This document shows, piece by piece, positions 57,084 to 62,874 of a stretch of 64,000 nt of DNA. The translations under genes were made by a program, and so were the position numbers. The notes under the pieces are model-generated. The model saw nothing but the letters and a program-made list of their open reading frames with translations, had not been told where the DNA came from and ran no database searches. The stretch covers positions 2,108,001 to 2,172,000 of the forward strand of contig NZ_CP051774.1 of the NCBI RefSeq assembly GCF_012913485.1, written 5' to 3'. How positions within the stretch are numbered: position 1 is the first letter of the stretch; every line of letters starts with the position of its first letter. Source of the DNA: Luteolibacter luteus (GTDB taxonomy: Bacteria > Verrucomicrobiota > Verrucomicrobiia > Verrucomicrobiales > Akkermansiaceae).

Positions 57084-58370
57084 ATGCACGCGCTCTCCGC
57101 TTCGTTCTTCCTCCAAATGGCCGTGATCCTCGTGGTCTGCCGCTTGGTAGGCCTCCTGGCGAAAAAAGTCGGTCAACCGCAAGTAGTCGGGGAGATGATC
57201 GCGGGCGTCCTGATCGGCCCCTCGCTGCTCGGGTATTTTTGGCCGGATCTCATGTCGGCGATTTTCACGAAGGAATCCCGCGGCATCCTCTACGCCGGGG
57301 CACAGCTCGGGGTGGGACTCTACATGTTCCTCGTGGGCCTTGAGTTCAATACTTCCCACTTCCGCTCGCGTGCTCGCAGCGCGGCCTGCGTTTCCGTCGC
57401 CGGAATGCTCGTTCCTTTCATCCTCGGTGCGCTGCTCGTCCTATGGCTGCAACACGTCCCCGGCATCTTCTCTCCGAAGGTCCGCTACTTTGAAGGAGCT
57501 CTCTTCCTCGGCGCGGCAATCGCGATCACCGCCTTCCCGATGCTCGCCCGCATCATTTCAGAGCGCGGCCTTTCCGGAACTTCCCTTGGGACCCTTGCCC
57601 TCGCTGCAGGTGCCATCGATGACGCCGCTGCATGGTGCGTGCTGGCCGTGGTGCTCGCCACCTTCGGCGCTTCGCAGCCGCTGGTTGTCGGCGGCATGAC
57701 CATCGGCGCGGAAGTGGTCGCCATCGGCGGTGCCGCACTTTACGGCATCGTCGCCCTCACGGTCGGACGCAAGTGGCTCGCCGGACTTGGCCGCCGGGCA
57801 GAGAAAGCCGGCGAAGTCAGCCAGCCGATGATGGCCCTGGTGCTCGCACTCTTCTGCCTCGCTGCATGGTACGCCGACATCATTGGCGTCCACGCCGTCT
57901 TCGGTGGCTTCATCCTCGGCATCGCAATGCCCCGTGGCGTCTTCGCGGACGACATCCGGAAGAAGATCGAGCCCTTCGCCGTGGTCTTCTTGCTTCCCAT
58001 GTTCTTCACCTTCTCCGGCCTGAACACGAAGCTGAACGTGCTGATGCAGCCGAATCTCATCCTCGTGGCCGTGGCCATCCTGCTCGCCTCCGTGCTCGGC
58101 AAGGGCGTGGCCTGCTGGGCCGCCGCCCGCCTCAATGGGGAAGACAATGCCACCTCCCTCGCCGTCGGCACCCTGATGAACGCCCGCGGCCTCATGGAGC
58201 TCATCATCATCAATATCGGCCTCCAGCGCGGCATCATTGGCGAGGCCCTGTTCTCCATCCTGGTCGTGATGGCCATCGTCACCACCCTCATGACCTCCCC
58301 GGTCTTCGAACTCGTCTACGGTCGGAAGAAAAGGGAAGTAGCAATACCCGCCGATGCGGCCGGAGCCTGA
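57084..58370 (+). CDS. Cation:proton antiporter, CPA2 (KefB/NapA) type
   Basis: 428 residues with about 12-13 membrane helices. The Asp-Asp pair in AAGAIDDAAAWCVLA is the ion-binding site of the electrogenic CPA2 group. GLYMFLVGLEFNTSHF, GVHAVFGGFILGIAMPRG and LNARGLMELIIINIGL-like segments are typical. There is no C-terminal TrkA/RCK domain, so it is a bare transporter. It exchanges sodium or potassium for protons and could set pH or salt tolerance. Monocistronic, with a clear terminator after it. Confidence 0.92.
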   Translation: MHALSASFFLQMAVILVVCRLVGLLAKKVGQPQVVGEMIAGVLIGPSLLGYFWPDLMSAIFTKESRGILYAGAQLGVGLYMFLVGLEFNTSHFRSRARSAACVSVAGMLVPFILGALLVLWLQHVPGIFSPKVRYFEGALFLGAAIAITAFPMLARIISERGLSGTSLGTLALAAGAIDDAAAWCVLAVVLATFGASQPLVVGGMTIGAEVVAIGGAALYGIVALTVGRKWLAGLGRRAEKAGEVSQPMMALVLALFCLAAWYADIIGVHAVFGGFILGIAMPRGVFADDIRKKIEPFAVVFLLPMFFTFSGLNTKLNVLMQPNLILVAVAILLASVLGKGVACWAAARLNGEDNATSLAVGTLMNARGLMELIIINIGLQRGIIGEALFSILVVMAIVTTLMTSPVFELVYGRKKREVAIPADAAGA

Positions 58371-58384
58371 GGCGAACACCGACA

Positions 58385-58412
58385 AAAGCACCGCCCGTCG
58401 CGGTGCTTTCTC
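58385..58412 (+). terminator. Rho-independent terminator after the antiporter gene
   Basis: Perfect 10-bp stem AAAGCACCGC (58385-58394) / GCGGTGCTTT (58400-58409), loop CCGTC, followed by a short T-rich tail. It is convergent with the BlaR1-like gene, whose stop lies at 58416-58418. Confidence 0.85.
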
Positions 58413-58415
58413 GTT

Positions 58416-60578
58416 TCAGTCTGCAGGATCAAGTTCCAAGATCATCATGCGCTGGGGCCCCTTCTCGTTCGGAAGAACATGAAGCAAAGCAGCAGAGCTC
58501 CTCGGAATCAGCCTCTCGGCTGTCGGAGTTCCTCTGGCATCCGTGCCCCTGAAGCCGGTTCTCATGGGGCGAAACTTCACATTGGCGGAGGAAGCATCGC
58601 CTAGAAACTCGGCCGAAAACGAAAGCTCCTTCACCTCGTCCCAAGGGACGCGGAACTCCCCGCTCGGAATGACCACCTCGGGCAGCTCGATGACCGGCGT
58701 CTTGCTGGTTTCCTTCATCTTCATCGCCGTCTCCCTCAGGATCGAAACCACTGCCGGCGAAATGCTCCCGTCCCCGAAACTTGCCCGGGCATCGTCATTT
58801 ACTTCAATCAAGGAACCCCGGACTTTCAAATTCCCCTTGATCGCGGGTAACAGCTCGTATCCGGCGGCCTCGAAATCCGGGACTTCCACCCCGATCACAT
58901 CGACCGGGGTCACCGTGATGAAAACCACACCATGATGCCCGGGCATCACTTCCCCTAGGGAAATCGCCATCGTATCTCCAGGTGCCAGGCTCCCCGTGGC
59001 CGCACCCTTCCGGTGGACCAACTTGTCCCAAGCGACCTCGATGTTCACTTCATCCTCGAGCCGCTCGGTCCCTTTCTCCCAAGCGGCCACATCCAGCGCA
59101 AAGTGCTCTCCCGGAACGAAGCCGTAGCCGATCCGTGCCTCCACCCGGAGCTTCTGTCCTTCCAGTTGTGATTCCAAGCGGTAGCTCCATCCCGCGAACC
59201 CTTCGGGTCGTTCCCCGGGGTTCTTGGCGTCGGGCTGCCATGGCGGTTTCGCGGGATTTTCCCGCACCACTTCGATCATCGTCGCCTCGCCGGCCCGCAT
59301 GGTGACCACCGGTGGTGTCATCAGCATCGCTCCCTTCTCTTGGGCTGCCTCCCTCATCAGCAATTGCATTTCGGCATCCGTGCGAACCGAAGCGTTGGCT
59401 GCCAGTTCGTCCGTTGTGACCAGAACCTTCATCCTCACCTTCACCTGAACGATCTTTTCCAATCCGCCTTCTGCTTGGTTTGGTTCATCCTCCGCAAATG
59501 CCATCCCGCCGGACGGGCTGTCCTGCACCACGCCGAACTCCCCCGCTCCAGATAAAGTCGAAAGGTCACTACCGACCCGCACCCCCGAGATAAGCAGCGC
59601 GACCCCTAACAGGCCACAACACGCCGAGAGGAGGACCCCCTTTTCAAATGGCGTCCCGCTGCCCGGCGTGGCTTCGAGGATCGTGACAATTCTCGCCCTC
59701 AGCGCTTTCAGCCTCTGCTTGCGAACCATGGTGACTGCCAGTGGATTTCGGGAAGTCTGCCGGGACGCCATCGCGATCAGAAACTCGCCATAGGTCGACC
59801 GGTCCTCATCATTCTCCGCCGCCGAAAGATCGCAGATGAATTCACGCGTGATCTTCCATCGCGCGATCAGGAGATGCACCACCGGATTCCACCAATGAAT
59901 CGCACGGATCAATTCAAGGATCATGGTCCAACGTGAATCCCCACCACGCCAGTGGCGCAGTTCGTGTCGCAAAGCCCACCGAAGCTCCCGCTCTTTATCC
60001 TGCTCCAGCAGATAAGCCGGCACCACGATCAGGGGACGGAAGAATCCGGCCACGCAAGGACTCCCGCTTCCGGATGAAGTGCGGAAAGAGTCGCGCGATG
60101 GAACGTCCCCAAGGTTCTCGGAAAGCCTGCACCACGCCTCTTCATCCATCGGATGAAGGGAACGTCGCCAACTCACGATGCGCAGGGAAGCGATGCCCAG
60201 ACCAAGTAGCAGCACGCCTCCACCCGCCGCCCAGCCATAGGCCAAAAGAGCATCCGGACTCGGCAAAGCCATTGGCTTCTTAGCTTTCACCGCCACGGCC
60301 GACTCTTGGACCCGCGCCGCCGGGATGCGGATCACCGTCCATTGTGGCAAGGCTGCGGGAGAGACTGACACTCGGTCCGACTTACTCCTCTCGGCCGTTT
60401 TCTCACCTGTTCTCCATGCGGAGAACCAAGGAAGAATCGCAATCGCAAGCAGTCCCGACAAGGCCGCCACTGCGACCCGCTGCGGCTTCCGCATGAAAAG
60501 GATGGCCGCGAACACCAGGATCGAAAGACCCGTCGCATGCAGCGCGACATTGAACAAATAATGCTCCGGGAAGTTCAC
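58416..60578 (-). CDS. BlaR1-type M56 membrane metalloprotease with non-penicillin-binding C-terminal domain
   Basis: 720 residues. Membrane helices are at about 13-30, 36-52, 113-135 and 315-335. The M56 protease domain is on the cytoplasmic loop with HELRH (205-209) and FICDLSAAEND. In BlaR1/MecR1 a C-terminal penicillin-binding sensor triggers this protease to cut the BlaI repressor. Here residues about 345-720 do not show the SxxK/KTG motifs of a penicillin-binding domain; they include VKVRMKVLVTTDELAA, WDKLVHRKGAATGSLAPGD and VPWDEVKELSFSAEF. The signal sensed is therefore unknown. The start overlaps the stop of the BlaI-like gene by 4 bp. Many PVC genomes hold such pairs (recollection). 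Confidence 0.85.
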   Translation of the reverse strand: MNFPEHYLFNVALHATGLSILVFAAILFMRKPQRVAVAALSGLLAIAILPWFSAWRTGEKTAERSKSDRVSVSPAALPQWTVIRIPAARVQESAVAVKAKKPMALPSPDALLAYGWAAGGGVLLLGLGIASLRIVSWRRSLHPMDEEAWCRLSENLGDVPSRDSFRTSSGSGSPCVAGFFRPLIVVPAYLLEQDKERELRWALRHELRHWRGGDSRWTMILELIRAIHWWNPVVHLLIARWKITREFICDLSAAENDEDRSTYGEFLIAMASRQTSRNPLAVTMVRKQRLKALRARIVTILEATPGSGTPFEKGVLLSACCGLLGVALLISGVRVGSDLSTLSGAGEFGVVQDSPSGGMAFAEDEPNQAEGGLEKIVQVKVRMKVLVTTDELAANASVRTDAEMQLLMREAAQEKGAMLMTPPVVTMRAGEATMIEVVRENPAKPPWQPDAKNPGERPEGFAGWSYRLESQLEGQKLRVEARIGYGFVPGEHFALDVAAWEKGTERLEDEVNIEVAWDKLVHRKGAATGSLAPGDTMAISLGEVMPGHHGVVFITVTPVDVIGVEVPDFEAAGYELLPAIKGNLKVRGSLIEVNDDARASFGDGSISPAVVSILRETAMKMKETSKTPVIELPEVVIPSGEFRVPWDEVKELSFSAEFLGDASSANVKFRPMRTGFRGTDARGTPTAERLIPRSSAALLHVLPNEKGPQRMMILELDPAD

Positions 60579-60967
60579 GCCTTGCCTCCCTTCCGGTGAT
60601 CTTTGATCAGGTCGTTCAGCTCCTTGATCTCCGCATCGCTCAAGCCTCCCTCTTCCACCAGACAGCGCACCAGCGAAAGCCCCGACCCGCCAAAGAGCCG
60701 CTCCTTCAGCTCCGAGAGGATCTTTCCACGACCACGCTTCTCCGGTACTGCCGCGCTGTAGTGGCGCACCTTTTCCCCGTCCTCATGCCTCAGCCAGCCC
60801 TTCGCCTCCAGCCGCGTGAGCTGCGTCTGCAAAGTGTTCCGGCTAATCGGCTCGGCACGCTCGGCATTGACTAACTCCAGCAGCGCCGCCACCGGCACAG
60901 GCTGCTTCTGCCAGATCAAGTCCATGAGCGCCTGCTCGGCGGCGGAGAGTGCGGGAAGCGATTTCAT
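60575..60967 (-). CDS. BlaI/MecI-family transcriptional repressor
   Basis: 130 residues from ATG 60967 (MKSLPALSAAEQALMDLIWQ); the open frame upstream runs through the operators and is not used. The winged-helix domain (AEPISRNTLQTQLTRLEAKGWLRHEDGEKVRHYSA) and dimerisation tail (LVRCLVEEGGLSDAEIKELNDLI) fit the BlaI family. It represses its own operon; the sensor-protease encoded next, overlapping by 4 bp, would inactivate it. Two palindromic operators lie 16 and 50 bp upstream, exactly where repression is expected. Targets elsewhere in the genome should carry the same operator. Confidence 0.93.
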   Translation of the reverse strand: MKSLPALSAAEQALMDLIWQKQPVPVAALLELVNAERAEPISRNTLQTQLTRLEAKGWLRHEDGEKVRHYSAAVPEKRGRGKILSELKERLFGGSGLSLVRCLVEEGGLSDAEIKELNDLIKDHRKGGKA

Positions 60968-60983
60968 GATCGTCAAACCACAC

Positions 60984-61001
60984 TGACGACAAATGTCGTC
61001 A
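60984..61001. promoter_or_regulatory. BlaI-type operator, proximal copy
   Basis: TGACGACAAATGTCGTCA, an 18-bp palindrome perfect except for the central AA/TT. It matches the bla/mec operator core (ACA-N-ATGT). It ends 16 bp before the repressor start codon. Confidence 0.88.
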
Positions 61002-61017
61002 CCCGTCCATCCAAAAA

Positions 61018-61035
61018 TGACGACATTTGTCGTCA
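61018..61035. promoter_or_regulatory. BlaI-type operator, distal copy
   Basis: TGACGACATTTGTCGTCA, the exact reverse complement of the proximal operator, with centres 34 bp apart (about three helical turns), so two repressor dimers can bind on the same face. Confidence 0.88.
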
Positions 61036-61560
61036 CGCAAGGAAGACTCCAACAAGGCGGCCGGGAGATAGCCTGGGATAGCCACACAACACACCCCCTT
61101 CTAGAGCCCCAACGGGACGGACGGCAGATAGCCTAGGATAGCCGCGCAACACACCCCTTCTAGAGTCCCAATGGGGCGGTCGGCAGATAGCCCAGGACAA
61201 CCGCACAACACGCCCTCTTCCAGAGCCCCAACGGGGCGGTCGGCAGATAGCCCAGGGTAACCGCACAACACGCCCTCTTCTAGAGCCCCAACGGGGCGGT
61301 CGGCAGATAGCCCAGGGTAACCGCACAACACGCCCTCTTCCAGAGCCCCAACGGGACGGTCGGCAGATAGCCCAGGGTAACCGCACAACACGCCCTCTTC
61401 TAGAGCCCCAACGGGACGGTCGGCAGATAGCCCAGGACAACCGCACAACACGCCCTCTTCTAGAGCCCCAACGGGGCGGTCGGGAGATAGCCCAGGACAA
61501 CCGCACAACACGCCCTCTTCTAGAGCCCCAACGGGGCGGTCGGGAGATAGCCCAGGGTAA
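61035..61560. repeat. Tandem array of 60-bp hairpin-bearing repeats (about eight units plus a partial)
   Basis: From 61081 to 61560 a unit of about 60 bp is repeated eight times with a few substitutions; a ninth partial unit precedes it. Each unit has the palindrome GCCCC-AAC-GGGGC (or with one changed base), followed by CGGTCGGCAGATAGCCC. The later six units are nearly identical, so expansion was recent. Two open frames on the minus strand read through it as a 20-residue repeat (with GLSADRPVGALEEG), but both lack any other protein character. It lies just upstream of the BlaI operators, an extragenic position. Confidence 0.9.
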
Positions 61561-61574
61561 GCGCGCAGCGCGCA

Positions 61575-61598
61575 ACCCTGGGTCTTCACGACCAGGGT
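61575..61598. repeat. Hairpin at the end of the tandem array
   Basis: ACCCTGG (61575-61581) and CCAGGGT (61592-61598) form a 7-bp stem with a 10-nt loop, directly after a GCGCGCAGCGCGC stretch. Another hairpin, GCTCCC-N5-GGGAGC, follows near 61602-61618. These belong with the array as GC hairpin repeats seen outside genes in planctomycete and verrucomicrobial genomes (recollection). Confidence 0.5.
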
Positions 61599-61618
61599 AC
61601 TGCTCCCTGAAGGGGAGC

Positions 61619-61929
61619 CGGGAGGCCCCTAAGTTCCTTCATCTCCATTAAAGCCGACCTTGGCAGTAGAAACCCACCCTCGCATCTGCGAATCTCTTGG
61701 CAAACATGTTCCCCGTCCACGCACCCATCCTCTCCTGTTCGCCCCCGCGAAGCGCGCTTCGTTTGATGATTGGCAGATTGATGATTGGTGATTTCTCCCT
61801 CCGCCCGCCTGTTAATTTCCCTGATATAACAGGCGGAACAGGTGGCAAATTTCAAAGCCTCGGAATCCCACCCCCTCCCGAATCGTGACAGCCACAGAAA
61901 CATTCCCGCTTTACCCGCGTTCCCTCCCC
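61619..61929. other. Non-coding stretch between the repeat array and the GH43 gene
   Basis: About 310 bp without a credible gene. It holds a near-duplicate GATGATTGG pair (around 61765-61785) and the dyad at 61805-61836. Frames crossing it on the minus strand are low-complexity extensions. It is the probable promoter region of the GH43 gene. Confidence 0.6.
61805..61836. promoter_or_regulatory. Perfect 10-bp inverted repeat upstream of the GH43 gene
   Basis: CCGCCTGTTA (61805-61814) and TAACAGGCGG (61827-61836) with a 12-nt spacer, 93 bp before the GH43 start. No T-run follows on either strand. It could be an operator or a leader hairpin for the sugar-hydrolase gene. Confidence 0.5.
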
Positions 61930-62874
61930 ATGCTCCGGCCGCTTCTCCTGGCAAGTCTCGCTTTCATCCTCCCCGCAGCGGCCCAATTCCACCGGGACGA
62001 TCCCTATCCGCGCATCCACGACCCCTCCACCGTTGTGGACGATGCCGGAAGCACTTTGATGCTCTGCACCGGCCACGGCGTGCCGCTGCTCAAGCGGGAG
62101 GCCGATGGCCGATGGAAGCGCGAAGGTCTGCTCTTCTCCGACTATCCGGCGTGGCACAAGAAAGAGATCCCCGAAAACCGAGGTCACCTCTGGGCCCCGG
62201 ACATCATCCGCATCGGCAGCCAATGGTTCGTCTACTACTCGGTCTCCAGCTTCGGCTCGAACGAATCCGCCATCGGCCTGGCGACCAACAAGACCCTCGA
62301 TCCCGCCTCCAAGGACTACGCCTGGAAAGACGAAGGCATGATCATCCGCTCCCGCGGCTCGAATCACTACAATGCGATCGACCCGGCGCTCATCATGGAT
62401 GATGGCCGCCTCTGGATGAGCTTCGGCTCCTTCTGGGAAGGCACCCAGCTCATCGAGCTCGATCCGAAGACCGGCCTTCGCAAGAACGCTGGCCAGCAGC
62501 CGATCCGGCTCGCCACTCATCAGGAGATCGAAGCCCCCTTCATCCACAAGCACGGCGACGACTATTACCTCTTCGTGAATTGGGGAAAATGCTGCAAGGG
62601 CGTGGACAGCACCTACGAGATCCGCATTGGCAGGAGCAAGCAGATCACCGGTCCTTATCTCGACAAGGAGGGCGTGGACCTCAAGGACGGCGGCGGCGCG
62701 CCGTTTCTCGCCACCGAAGGCAAGTTCATCGGCCCCGGCCACGCGTCCATCTACAAGGAAAAGGGCCGGGAGATGCTCGTGCACCACTACTACGACAAGG
62801 ACCGCAACGGCAGATCCGACCTCCGCATGCTTCCCCTCGAATGGAAGGACGGCTGGCCGCTCATCGCGAGATAG
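61930..62874 (+). CDS. Glycoside hydrolase family 43, endo-arabinanase-like, secreted
   Basis: 314 residues from ATG 61930, chosen because it yields a signal peptide (MLRPLLLASLAFILPAAAQ). The five-bladed GH43 fold is shown by RIHDPST (base Asp31), GHLWAPDIIRIGSQWFVYYS, NAIDPAL (Asp151) and HQEIEAPFI (acid Glu201). The wording of these blocks matches arabinan endo-1,5-alpha-L-arabinosidases. It should cut pectin side-chain arabinan outside the cell. No transporter or other sugar gene is adjacent. The gene is convergent with the PagL-like gene 15 bp away. Confidence 0.92.
   Translation: MLRPLLLASLAFILPAAAQFHRDDPYPRIHDPSTVVDDAGSTLMLCTGHGVPLLKREADGRWKREGLLFSDYPAWHKKEIPENRGHLWAPDIIRIGSQWFVYYSVSSFGSNESAIGLATNKTLDPASKDYAWKDEGMIIRSRGSNHYNAIDPALIMDDGRLWMSFGSFWEGTQLIELDPKTGLRKNAGQQPIRLATHQEIEAPFIHKHGDDYYLFVNWGKCCKGVDSTYEIRIGRSKQITGPYLDKEGVDLKDGGGAPFLATEGKFIGPGHASIYKEKGREMLVHHYYDKDRNGRSDLRMLPLEWKDGWPLIAR

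Follow-up and report, generated by a model that had tools for sequence, protein, structure and literature searches.

In the BlaR1/BlaI systems of Staphylococcus aureus and Bacillus licheniformis, a membrane protease of the M56 family with a penicillin-binding ectodomain is paired with a repressor. Passages of PMC9834060 place the BlaI cut site at Asn101-Phe102 and name the BlaR1 residues H201EXXH205, D210, E242XXXD246, Y261, and R294. A section of PMC5460165 gives the BlaI/MecI operator motif as TACA/TGTA, and according to the same source and part of PMC3305447 known bla systems carry two or three operators. We analyzed 64,000 nucleotides of Luteolibacter luteus (assembly GCF_012913485.1, contig NZ_CP051774.1, positions 2,108,001 to 2,172,000; hereafter the window), in which positions 58416-61035 hold a related gene pair and its putative operators. 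We read the pair as a BlaI/BlaR1-type switch that regulates itself and has a secretin-derived domain as the sensor of its receptor, and give this reading a probability of about 0.68. By computation, both proteins are homologous to BlaI and BlaR1, the catalytic residues are kept, the first unit of the ectodomain matches the core fold of secretins, and pairs of operator-like palindromes also precede related cassettes.

The receptor is a protein of 720 amino acids (58416..60578, minus strand) with a GTG start. Peptidase_M56 is its sole Pfam family above cut-off (PF05569, E 2.9e-25; 89.5 bits against a cut-off of 31), covering residues 97-299 (59682..60290, minus strand). The two zinc-site motifs are present, HEXXH as HELRH at residues 205-209 (H205-H209; 59952..59966, minus strand) and EXXXD as E246 and D250. 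D214, Y263, and R296 are found as well and were paired with their BlaR1 counterparts of PMC9834060 by spacing, not by alignment. H205, E206, H209, D214, E246, D250, Y263, and R296 are all invariant in an alignment of eight rows, the window and seven relatives (A1). Because these counterparts are both present and invariant, the protease is predicted to be active. By hydropathy four regions of the protein exceed the threshold for hydrophobic segments; the last, a transmembrane-like segment at residues 315-333 (59580..59636, minus strand), is followed by about 390 residues. NF000326, the equivalog model for full-length BlaR1/MecR1, scores 58.3 bits, below its cut-off of 400, and its match is limited to residues 167-323 in the protease half.

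The repressor is of the BlaI/MecI type (60575..60967, minus strand; 130 amino acids; stop codon 60575-60577). The longer open reading frame 60575-61087 matches PF03965 at E 2.3e-19 (70.3 bits, above the curated cut-off of 22.6), and BlaI in the Protein Data Bank (PDB 1sd4) is matched at 1.7e-10. The start is most likely the ATG at 60967, since a frame from 61087 would cross both operators and the 130-residue form aligns with BlaI from residue 7. The repressor stop and the GTG of the protease overlap by 4 base pairs (bp), and the two look like a two-gene unit. A preliminary description had named a BlaI-like repressor overlapping a BlaR1-type M56 protease with HELRH, and both assignments hold.

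The same description had the C-terminus of the protease lacking penicillin-binding motifs and called the sensor domain unknown. The first point is borne out: SXXK is absent from the C-terminal 376 residues (345-720), and the protease protein has no match to the transpeptidase family PF00905 at E<=1. The second no longer applies, as the domain is identified as secretin-like by profile, fold match, and identity with PilQ. Structure prediction gave a secretin-like fold and not the diverged transpeptidase fold that had been raised as the alternative. The modeled secretin core fold covers residues of about 374-564 (58887..59459, minus strand). A profile of the window ectodomain and 15 stretches from 14 loci (A2) was compared with the PDB, and all eight matches at E<=10 are type II secretion secretins, the best at 2.3e-4. 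Foldseek on the AlphaFold2 (AF2) model returned only two matches below 0.001, the phage pore pIV and PilQ. With VIA-align the top 27 rows come from secretin entries (Z 8.1-10.5, 125-154 residues aligned, root-mean-square deviation 3.8-7.8); the best non-secretin row is a designed protein at Z 7.8, and another secretin row stands at 7.0. In a one-sequence comparison with the PilQ-type secretin of the same genome (L115:3600-6278), 28 of 64 residues are identical (E 1e-11), an identity of 44% over 64 columns that pairs residues 392-451 (59226..59405, minus strand) with PilQ 626-689. NCBIfam NF042912, the Amuc_1098 secretin family, gives a short match at residues 397-440 (E 1.5e-6; 26.6 bits, far below its cut-off of 750). 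Read by eye, the VPxxGDIPxxGxLF stretch of PilQ has no equivalent in the window ectodomain.

The remainder of the ectodomain (residues 582-720; 58419..58835, minus strand) may be a degenerate second unit. An internal repeat was suggested by eye, but the profile comparison was weak (E 0.0054, probability 6.7%) and the model of this part was of low confidence. A lipobox after the last helix was seen in a few relatives only, with 18 of the 24 proteins scanned, and this idea was dropped.

Two putative operators lie just upstream of the repressor, O1 at 60984..61001 (TGACGACAAATGTCGTCA) and O2 at 61018..61035 (TGACGACATTTGTCGTCA), both exactly where the preliminary description had placed its twin sites. 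Their starts are 34 bp apart with 16 bp between the sites, and a further 16 bp lie between O1 and the likely ATG at 60967. Both have perfect 8+8 palindromic symmetry about a 2-bp center, an ACA-N2-TGT core, and TGACG/CGTCA flanks. That one is the exact reverse complement of the other is true but adds little, because two such palindromes differ solely in having AA or TT at the center. A search of the window allowing up to three mismatches gave four matches, as each site is read from either strand; shuffles averaged 0.03, and none of 100 reached four. A sigma-70 promoter scan of 58300-62100 found none.

The sites keep their position in relatives. We scanned 25 loci for palindromes and excluded L082, where phmmer found no repressor. 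The remaining 24, the window and 23 relatives, include the planctomycete L089 and L073, whose ectodomain is unseen. ACA-N2-TGT palindromes occur within 130 bp upstream of the repressor twice in 20 of the 24 loci and once in four (L056, L068, L073, and L089), the independent number being smaller as L072/L076/L078, L074/L075, and L067/L068 are near copies. The two sites stand 31-36 bp apart in 19 of the two-site loci and 19 bp apart in the twentieth, L083. Among 4800 dinucleotide shuffles at least one site was seen in 124 and two sites in one, under a scoring chosen after the site of the window was known. Twin operators are no peculiarity of this locus, being found in related loci and in the bla systems cited above. 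Upstream of the repressor and kept in relatives, the palindromes are putative binding sites for a repressor of the BlaI/MecI/CopY type.

We also examined how far the operator predicts a regulon. The exact core is found in this genome at O1 and O2 only. With up to two mismatches the 14-bp core has 113 matches against 111 for the control and about 138 expected by shuffles; with up to one it has six against about 5.5. The four one-mismatch core sites (L150-L153) are all inside open frames. Eight of the 19 inexact matches to the 18-bp site were inspected (L003-L010), of which seven are in long open frames and L004, with three mismatches, may be intergenic. Relaxed matches are near chance. Since they are, and the exact core is restricted to O1 and O2, the predicted regulon in this genome is the operon itself. 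The earlier expectation that the regulon could be predicted from the operator was correct in that the genome search yields a prediction, but that prediction holds the operon only.

Across eight genomes the exact core was counted 13 times, with no occurrence in G061, and 12 of these sites belong to a cassette. The remaining one, in G101 (C4; L174:1499-1516, core 417441-417454), extends to all 18 bp and precedes by about 60 bp the probable start of a gene that codes for sigma-70 regions 2 and 4. None was seen ahead of the orthologous genes of G000 and G056, and in G006 a weak and partial match falls within the beginning of the coding sequence. The frames around the cassettes yielded no conserved target gene. 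As far as exact sites tell, the conserved output would be the cassette itself.

A search for related loci retrieved 50. Of 195 genomes from the family, 141 gave a match to the C-terminal 376 residues at E<=0.001. Apart from that of the window itself, long matches come from G056 (42%), G101 (44%), and G006 (36%) of the same genus, with weaker long ones in G036, G143, and G061. The other matches listed are mostly short, lie around query residues 48-120, and are chiefly in open frames of 850-970 amino acids; the short match in the genome of the window falls in its PilQ-type secretin. In a class-wide sample the full-length profile matched at 1e-10 in 90 of 285 genomes, mostly to the M56 part; among the matches listed, G000, G056, G006, G036, and G026 run from the protease through the secretin-like unit. 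A profile of that unit, made from the window and relatives, matched 15 open frames in 14 of 25 loci at E<=1, all of them M56 proteins of Verrucomicrobiota by record title. They include Luteolibacter pohnpeiensis, Prosthecobacter, Verrucomicrobium, and Brevifollis; the gene in L078 is split, and the frame matched there is its second piece. Cassettes of this kind are found repeatedly, for the most part in Verrucomicrobiota.

Ten M56 proteins were compared with the Secretin family PF00263. Those of L074, L083, and L089 match above the cut-off and those of L066, L069, and L082 below it, with no match in two of L065 or in L058 and L059. In a tree of 61 M56 domains, from which stretches under 110 residues were excluded, the 22 receptors that the profile classes as secretin-type lie together in a single starred group. 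This group has 23 rows, the additional one being L073, a gene cut off by the end of its contig. The secretin-type label changes twice on the tree against a shuffled mean of 18.1, the label coming from a profile built partly from the same sequences. L083 branches just outside the group. L089, from Pirellula, has its own Secretin match and is placed in another part of the tree, suggesting that there was a second acquisition.

Related proteins occur in other arrangements. L062:4383-6798, L053:3846-5165, and L063:4591-5919 code for proteins of 367-449 amino acids without a protease, apparently anchored or secreted as judged by eye. One protein per locus matches the secretin-like unit of the window, and the related frames of L062 form a tandem of two. 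In L. pohnpeiensis (L065:3821-8232) one repressor is followed by two tandem secretin-type M56 genes and a 139-residue frame weakly matching the C-terminal part of the window protein (E 0.0004).

The genome of L. luteus encodes three further M56 proteins. That of L059 forms a second M56/BlaI pair, and its ectodomain is 46% identical over 136 residues to PilQ 275-410 in a one-sequence comparison (E 4e-33). It carries a secretin N-terminal domain (PF07660, 0.0009, below cut-off). The third, in L058, has a transpeptidase domain (PF00905, 1.2e-38), and the fourth, in L060, is short at 300 amino acids. Judged by their predicted domains, BlaR1-type receptors with penicillin-binding, secretin-core, and secretin-N ectodomains are found in one genome. 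The transpeptidase-bearing M56 protein and the adjacent BlaI-type gene at L058:3806-6567 are the better BlaR1-like candidate of this organism. The cassettes at L059:752-6477 and L054:3464-10206, from two genera, carry different ectodomains, secretin N-domain and core, beside dnaE genes that are 81.5% identical, hinting at an exchange of receptor cassettes at one locus.

For the pair in the window we propose that a repressor dimer on O1 and O2 would shut its own promoter. A periplasmic signal met by the secretin-like unit would move the transmembrane helices, upon which the cytoplasmic zinc site would cut the repressor and derepress the operon. With the operon itself as the direct output in this genome, the receptor would be both the sensor and the main regulated product. 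The likeliest signal would be the state of the cell envelope, for example a protein partner of secretins or a change in peptidoglycan or the outer membrane. A sensor acylated by beta-lactams is unlikely.

Several observations weigh against this reading. The scissile Asn-Phe of BlaI is replaced by an aligned Cys-Leu, though a hydrophobic residue still follows the aligned cut position. In part of PMC3305447, work on B. licheniformis favors a peptidoglycan-fragment coactivator that acts on the repressor. PF00263 has no match at E<=1 in the window protein or in its seven nearest M56 relatives (L050-L052 and L054-L057), so the secretin assignment draws on the profile, the fold, and more distant relatives. 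The AF2 model of the ectodomain (361 residues) has a mean predicted local distance difference test (pLDDT) of 55.9, and two loops at 37-55 interrupt model residues 21-210 (protein 380-569), where ten-residue block means are otherwise 65-89. Residues 582-720 average 46.6 from a three-row alignment, giving no usable model. Whole-model TM-scores in Foldseek are low at 0.19-0.20, as expected where one unit alone of the model is confident. The cassette is also patchy within its genus, with long matches in four of 18 same-genus genomes among those listed. Lastly, the 18-bp site with up to three mismatches occurs at 21 places in the genome (two exact) against three for a backward-pattern control. When the window is shuffled by dinucleotides and the counts are scaled up to genome size, the expectations are about 14.5, and eight for the reversed pattern, a rough estimate from 29 matches in 200 shuffles. 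They explain the excess of 21 over three only in part, though 21 is not clearly above about 14.5, and diverged operator targets may exist.

What the receptor binds is a separate matter from how it signals. At somewhat less than even odds, and compatible with the proposed mechanism, the secretin-like unit could be a mere beta-rich binding module, widespread in the lineage, with a ligand unrelated to secretins or pili. The proteins without a protease in L053, L062, and L063, from related genomes and this one, match the unit, so its use as a module extends beyond the receptors. Frames flanking the cassettes differ across the set, none being recognized by eye as a pilus gene, and the PilQ locus shows no excess of operator-like sites (three matches against 4.33 expected). 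Against this, a generic module would not require a single genome to hold two paralogues, each resembling a different part of a PilQ-type secretin at 44-46% identity. These two receptors resembling different parts of the same channel are the strangest point of the analysis and make it worth testing whether secretins are monitored. Verrucomicrobia might have turned pieces of their own secretin into receptors that watch the assembly of the secretin or type IV pilus through shared partners or stray subunits and report by BlaI cleavage, a proposal we consider unlikely as it stands. We give about the same low weight to the M56 protein being mainly an envelope-quality protease or an effector interfering with secretins, its amount held constant by the repressor with little sensing. 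The near-restriction of exact cores to the cassettes and the failure to find a conserved target gene fit such a role, but the BlaR1 catalytic residues are kept, a repressor gene stands beside 24 of the 25 loci scanned, and the exact 18-bp site ahead of the sigma-70-family gene in G101 is as in a true regulator. It is very improbable that the pair senses beta-lactams by another chemistry or cell-wall damage through the secretin-like domain. The homology of both partners to BlaI/BlaR1 and the transpeptidase-bearing paralogue in the same genome speak for it; the missing SXXK and transpeptidase match (at E<=1), the secretin fold, and the lack of a beta-lactamase next to the pair speak against it.

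The neighbors of the pair are a Na+/H+ exchanger (PF00999) and a gene for glycoside hydrolase family 43 (GH43; PF04616). No beta-lactamase adjoins the pair, as the preliminary description had noted. Cassette neighbors are common to close relatives but not across the whole set. GH43 is the divergent neighbor both here and in three same-genus relatives, and the GH43 gene of G006 (PF04616, 1.8e-37) begins 63 bp away from the distal operator, as if the operators controlled this gene too and the system regulated polysaccharide use. This is distinctly unlikely, for in the window about 894 bp, including a repeat array, separate O2 from the GH43 start (61930), the distance in the other two same-genus relatives is about 790-840 bp, and GH43 was not recognized by eye among the upstream frames of loci from other genera. 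The array itself, at 61049-61564 between O2 and the GH43 gene, is a 60-bp tandem repeat of 8.6 copies with 92% matches. Its core occurs at 30 places in the genome with up to three mismatches, nine of them here, and a spacing of 59-60 bp recurs at three other spots.

If the reading is correct, the BlaR1 signaling scaffold is a chassis with a swappable sensor, here a secretin module, and a group of Verrucomicrobial receptors gains a concrete hypothesis for a sensor partner. A name taken only from the M56 model would point to a sensor of antibiotics, and the ectodomain gives no support for that. No report of an M56-secretin fusion was found in the literature searched, open-licence papers in PMC, where absence is not proof.

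The second pair of the genome, L059, is one of the nearest comparisons. It also places an M56 protease beside a BlaI-type repressor, with an ectodomain related to PilQ-type secretins, but differs in having the secretin N-terminal domain, in its position in the M56 tree, and in its nearest palindrome, CTACATTTGTAG, which has two exact sites in the genome against seven for the control. With PilQ and the Amuc_1098 family, the outer-membrane channel of the Verrucomicrobia type IV pilus, the window protein shares the fold of residues 374-564 and the 44% identity given above. Unlike in those secretins, the unit is on a membrane protease with no N-domain recognized before it, the VPxxGDIPxxGxLF counterpart is missing, and there is no sign of a membrane barrel, the hydropathy indicating helical segments. 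Like BlaR1/BlaI of S. aureus and B. licheniformis, the pair has an M56 gluzincin protease with the BlaR1 catalytic residues, a BlaI-type repressor, multiple palindromic putative operators with the ACA-N2-TGT core, and a C-terminal ectodomain after the last transmembrane helix. It differs from them in its secretin-like ectodomain, in having no beta-lactamase beside it, in its operator flanks, in the residues at the aligned cut site, and in having no further exact operator core in the genome. A beta-lactam receptor is defined by a penicillin-binding ectodomain with an acylatable SXXK serine, which this protein does not have; in design, the pair is built like BlaR1/BlaI.

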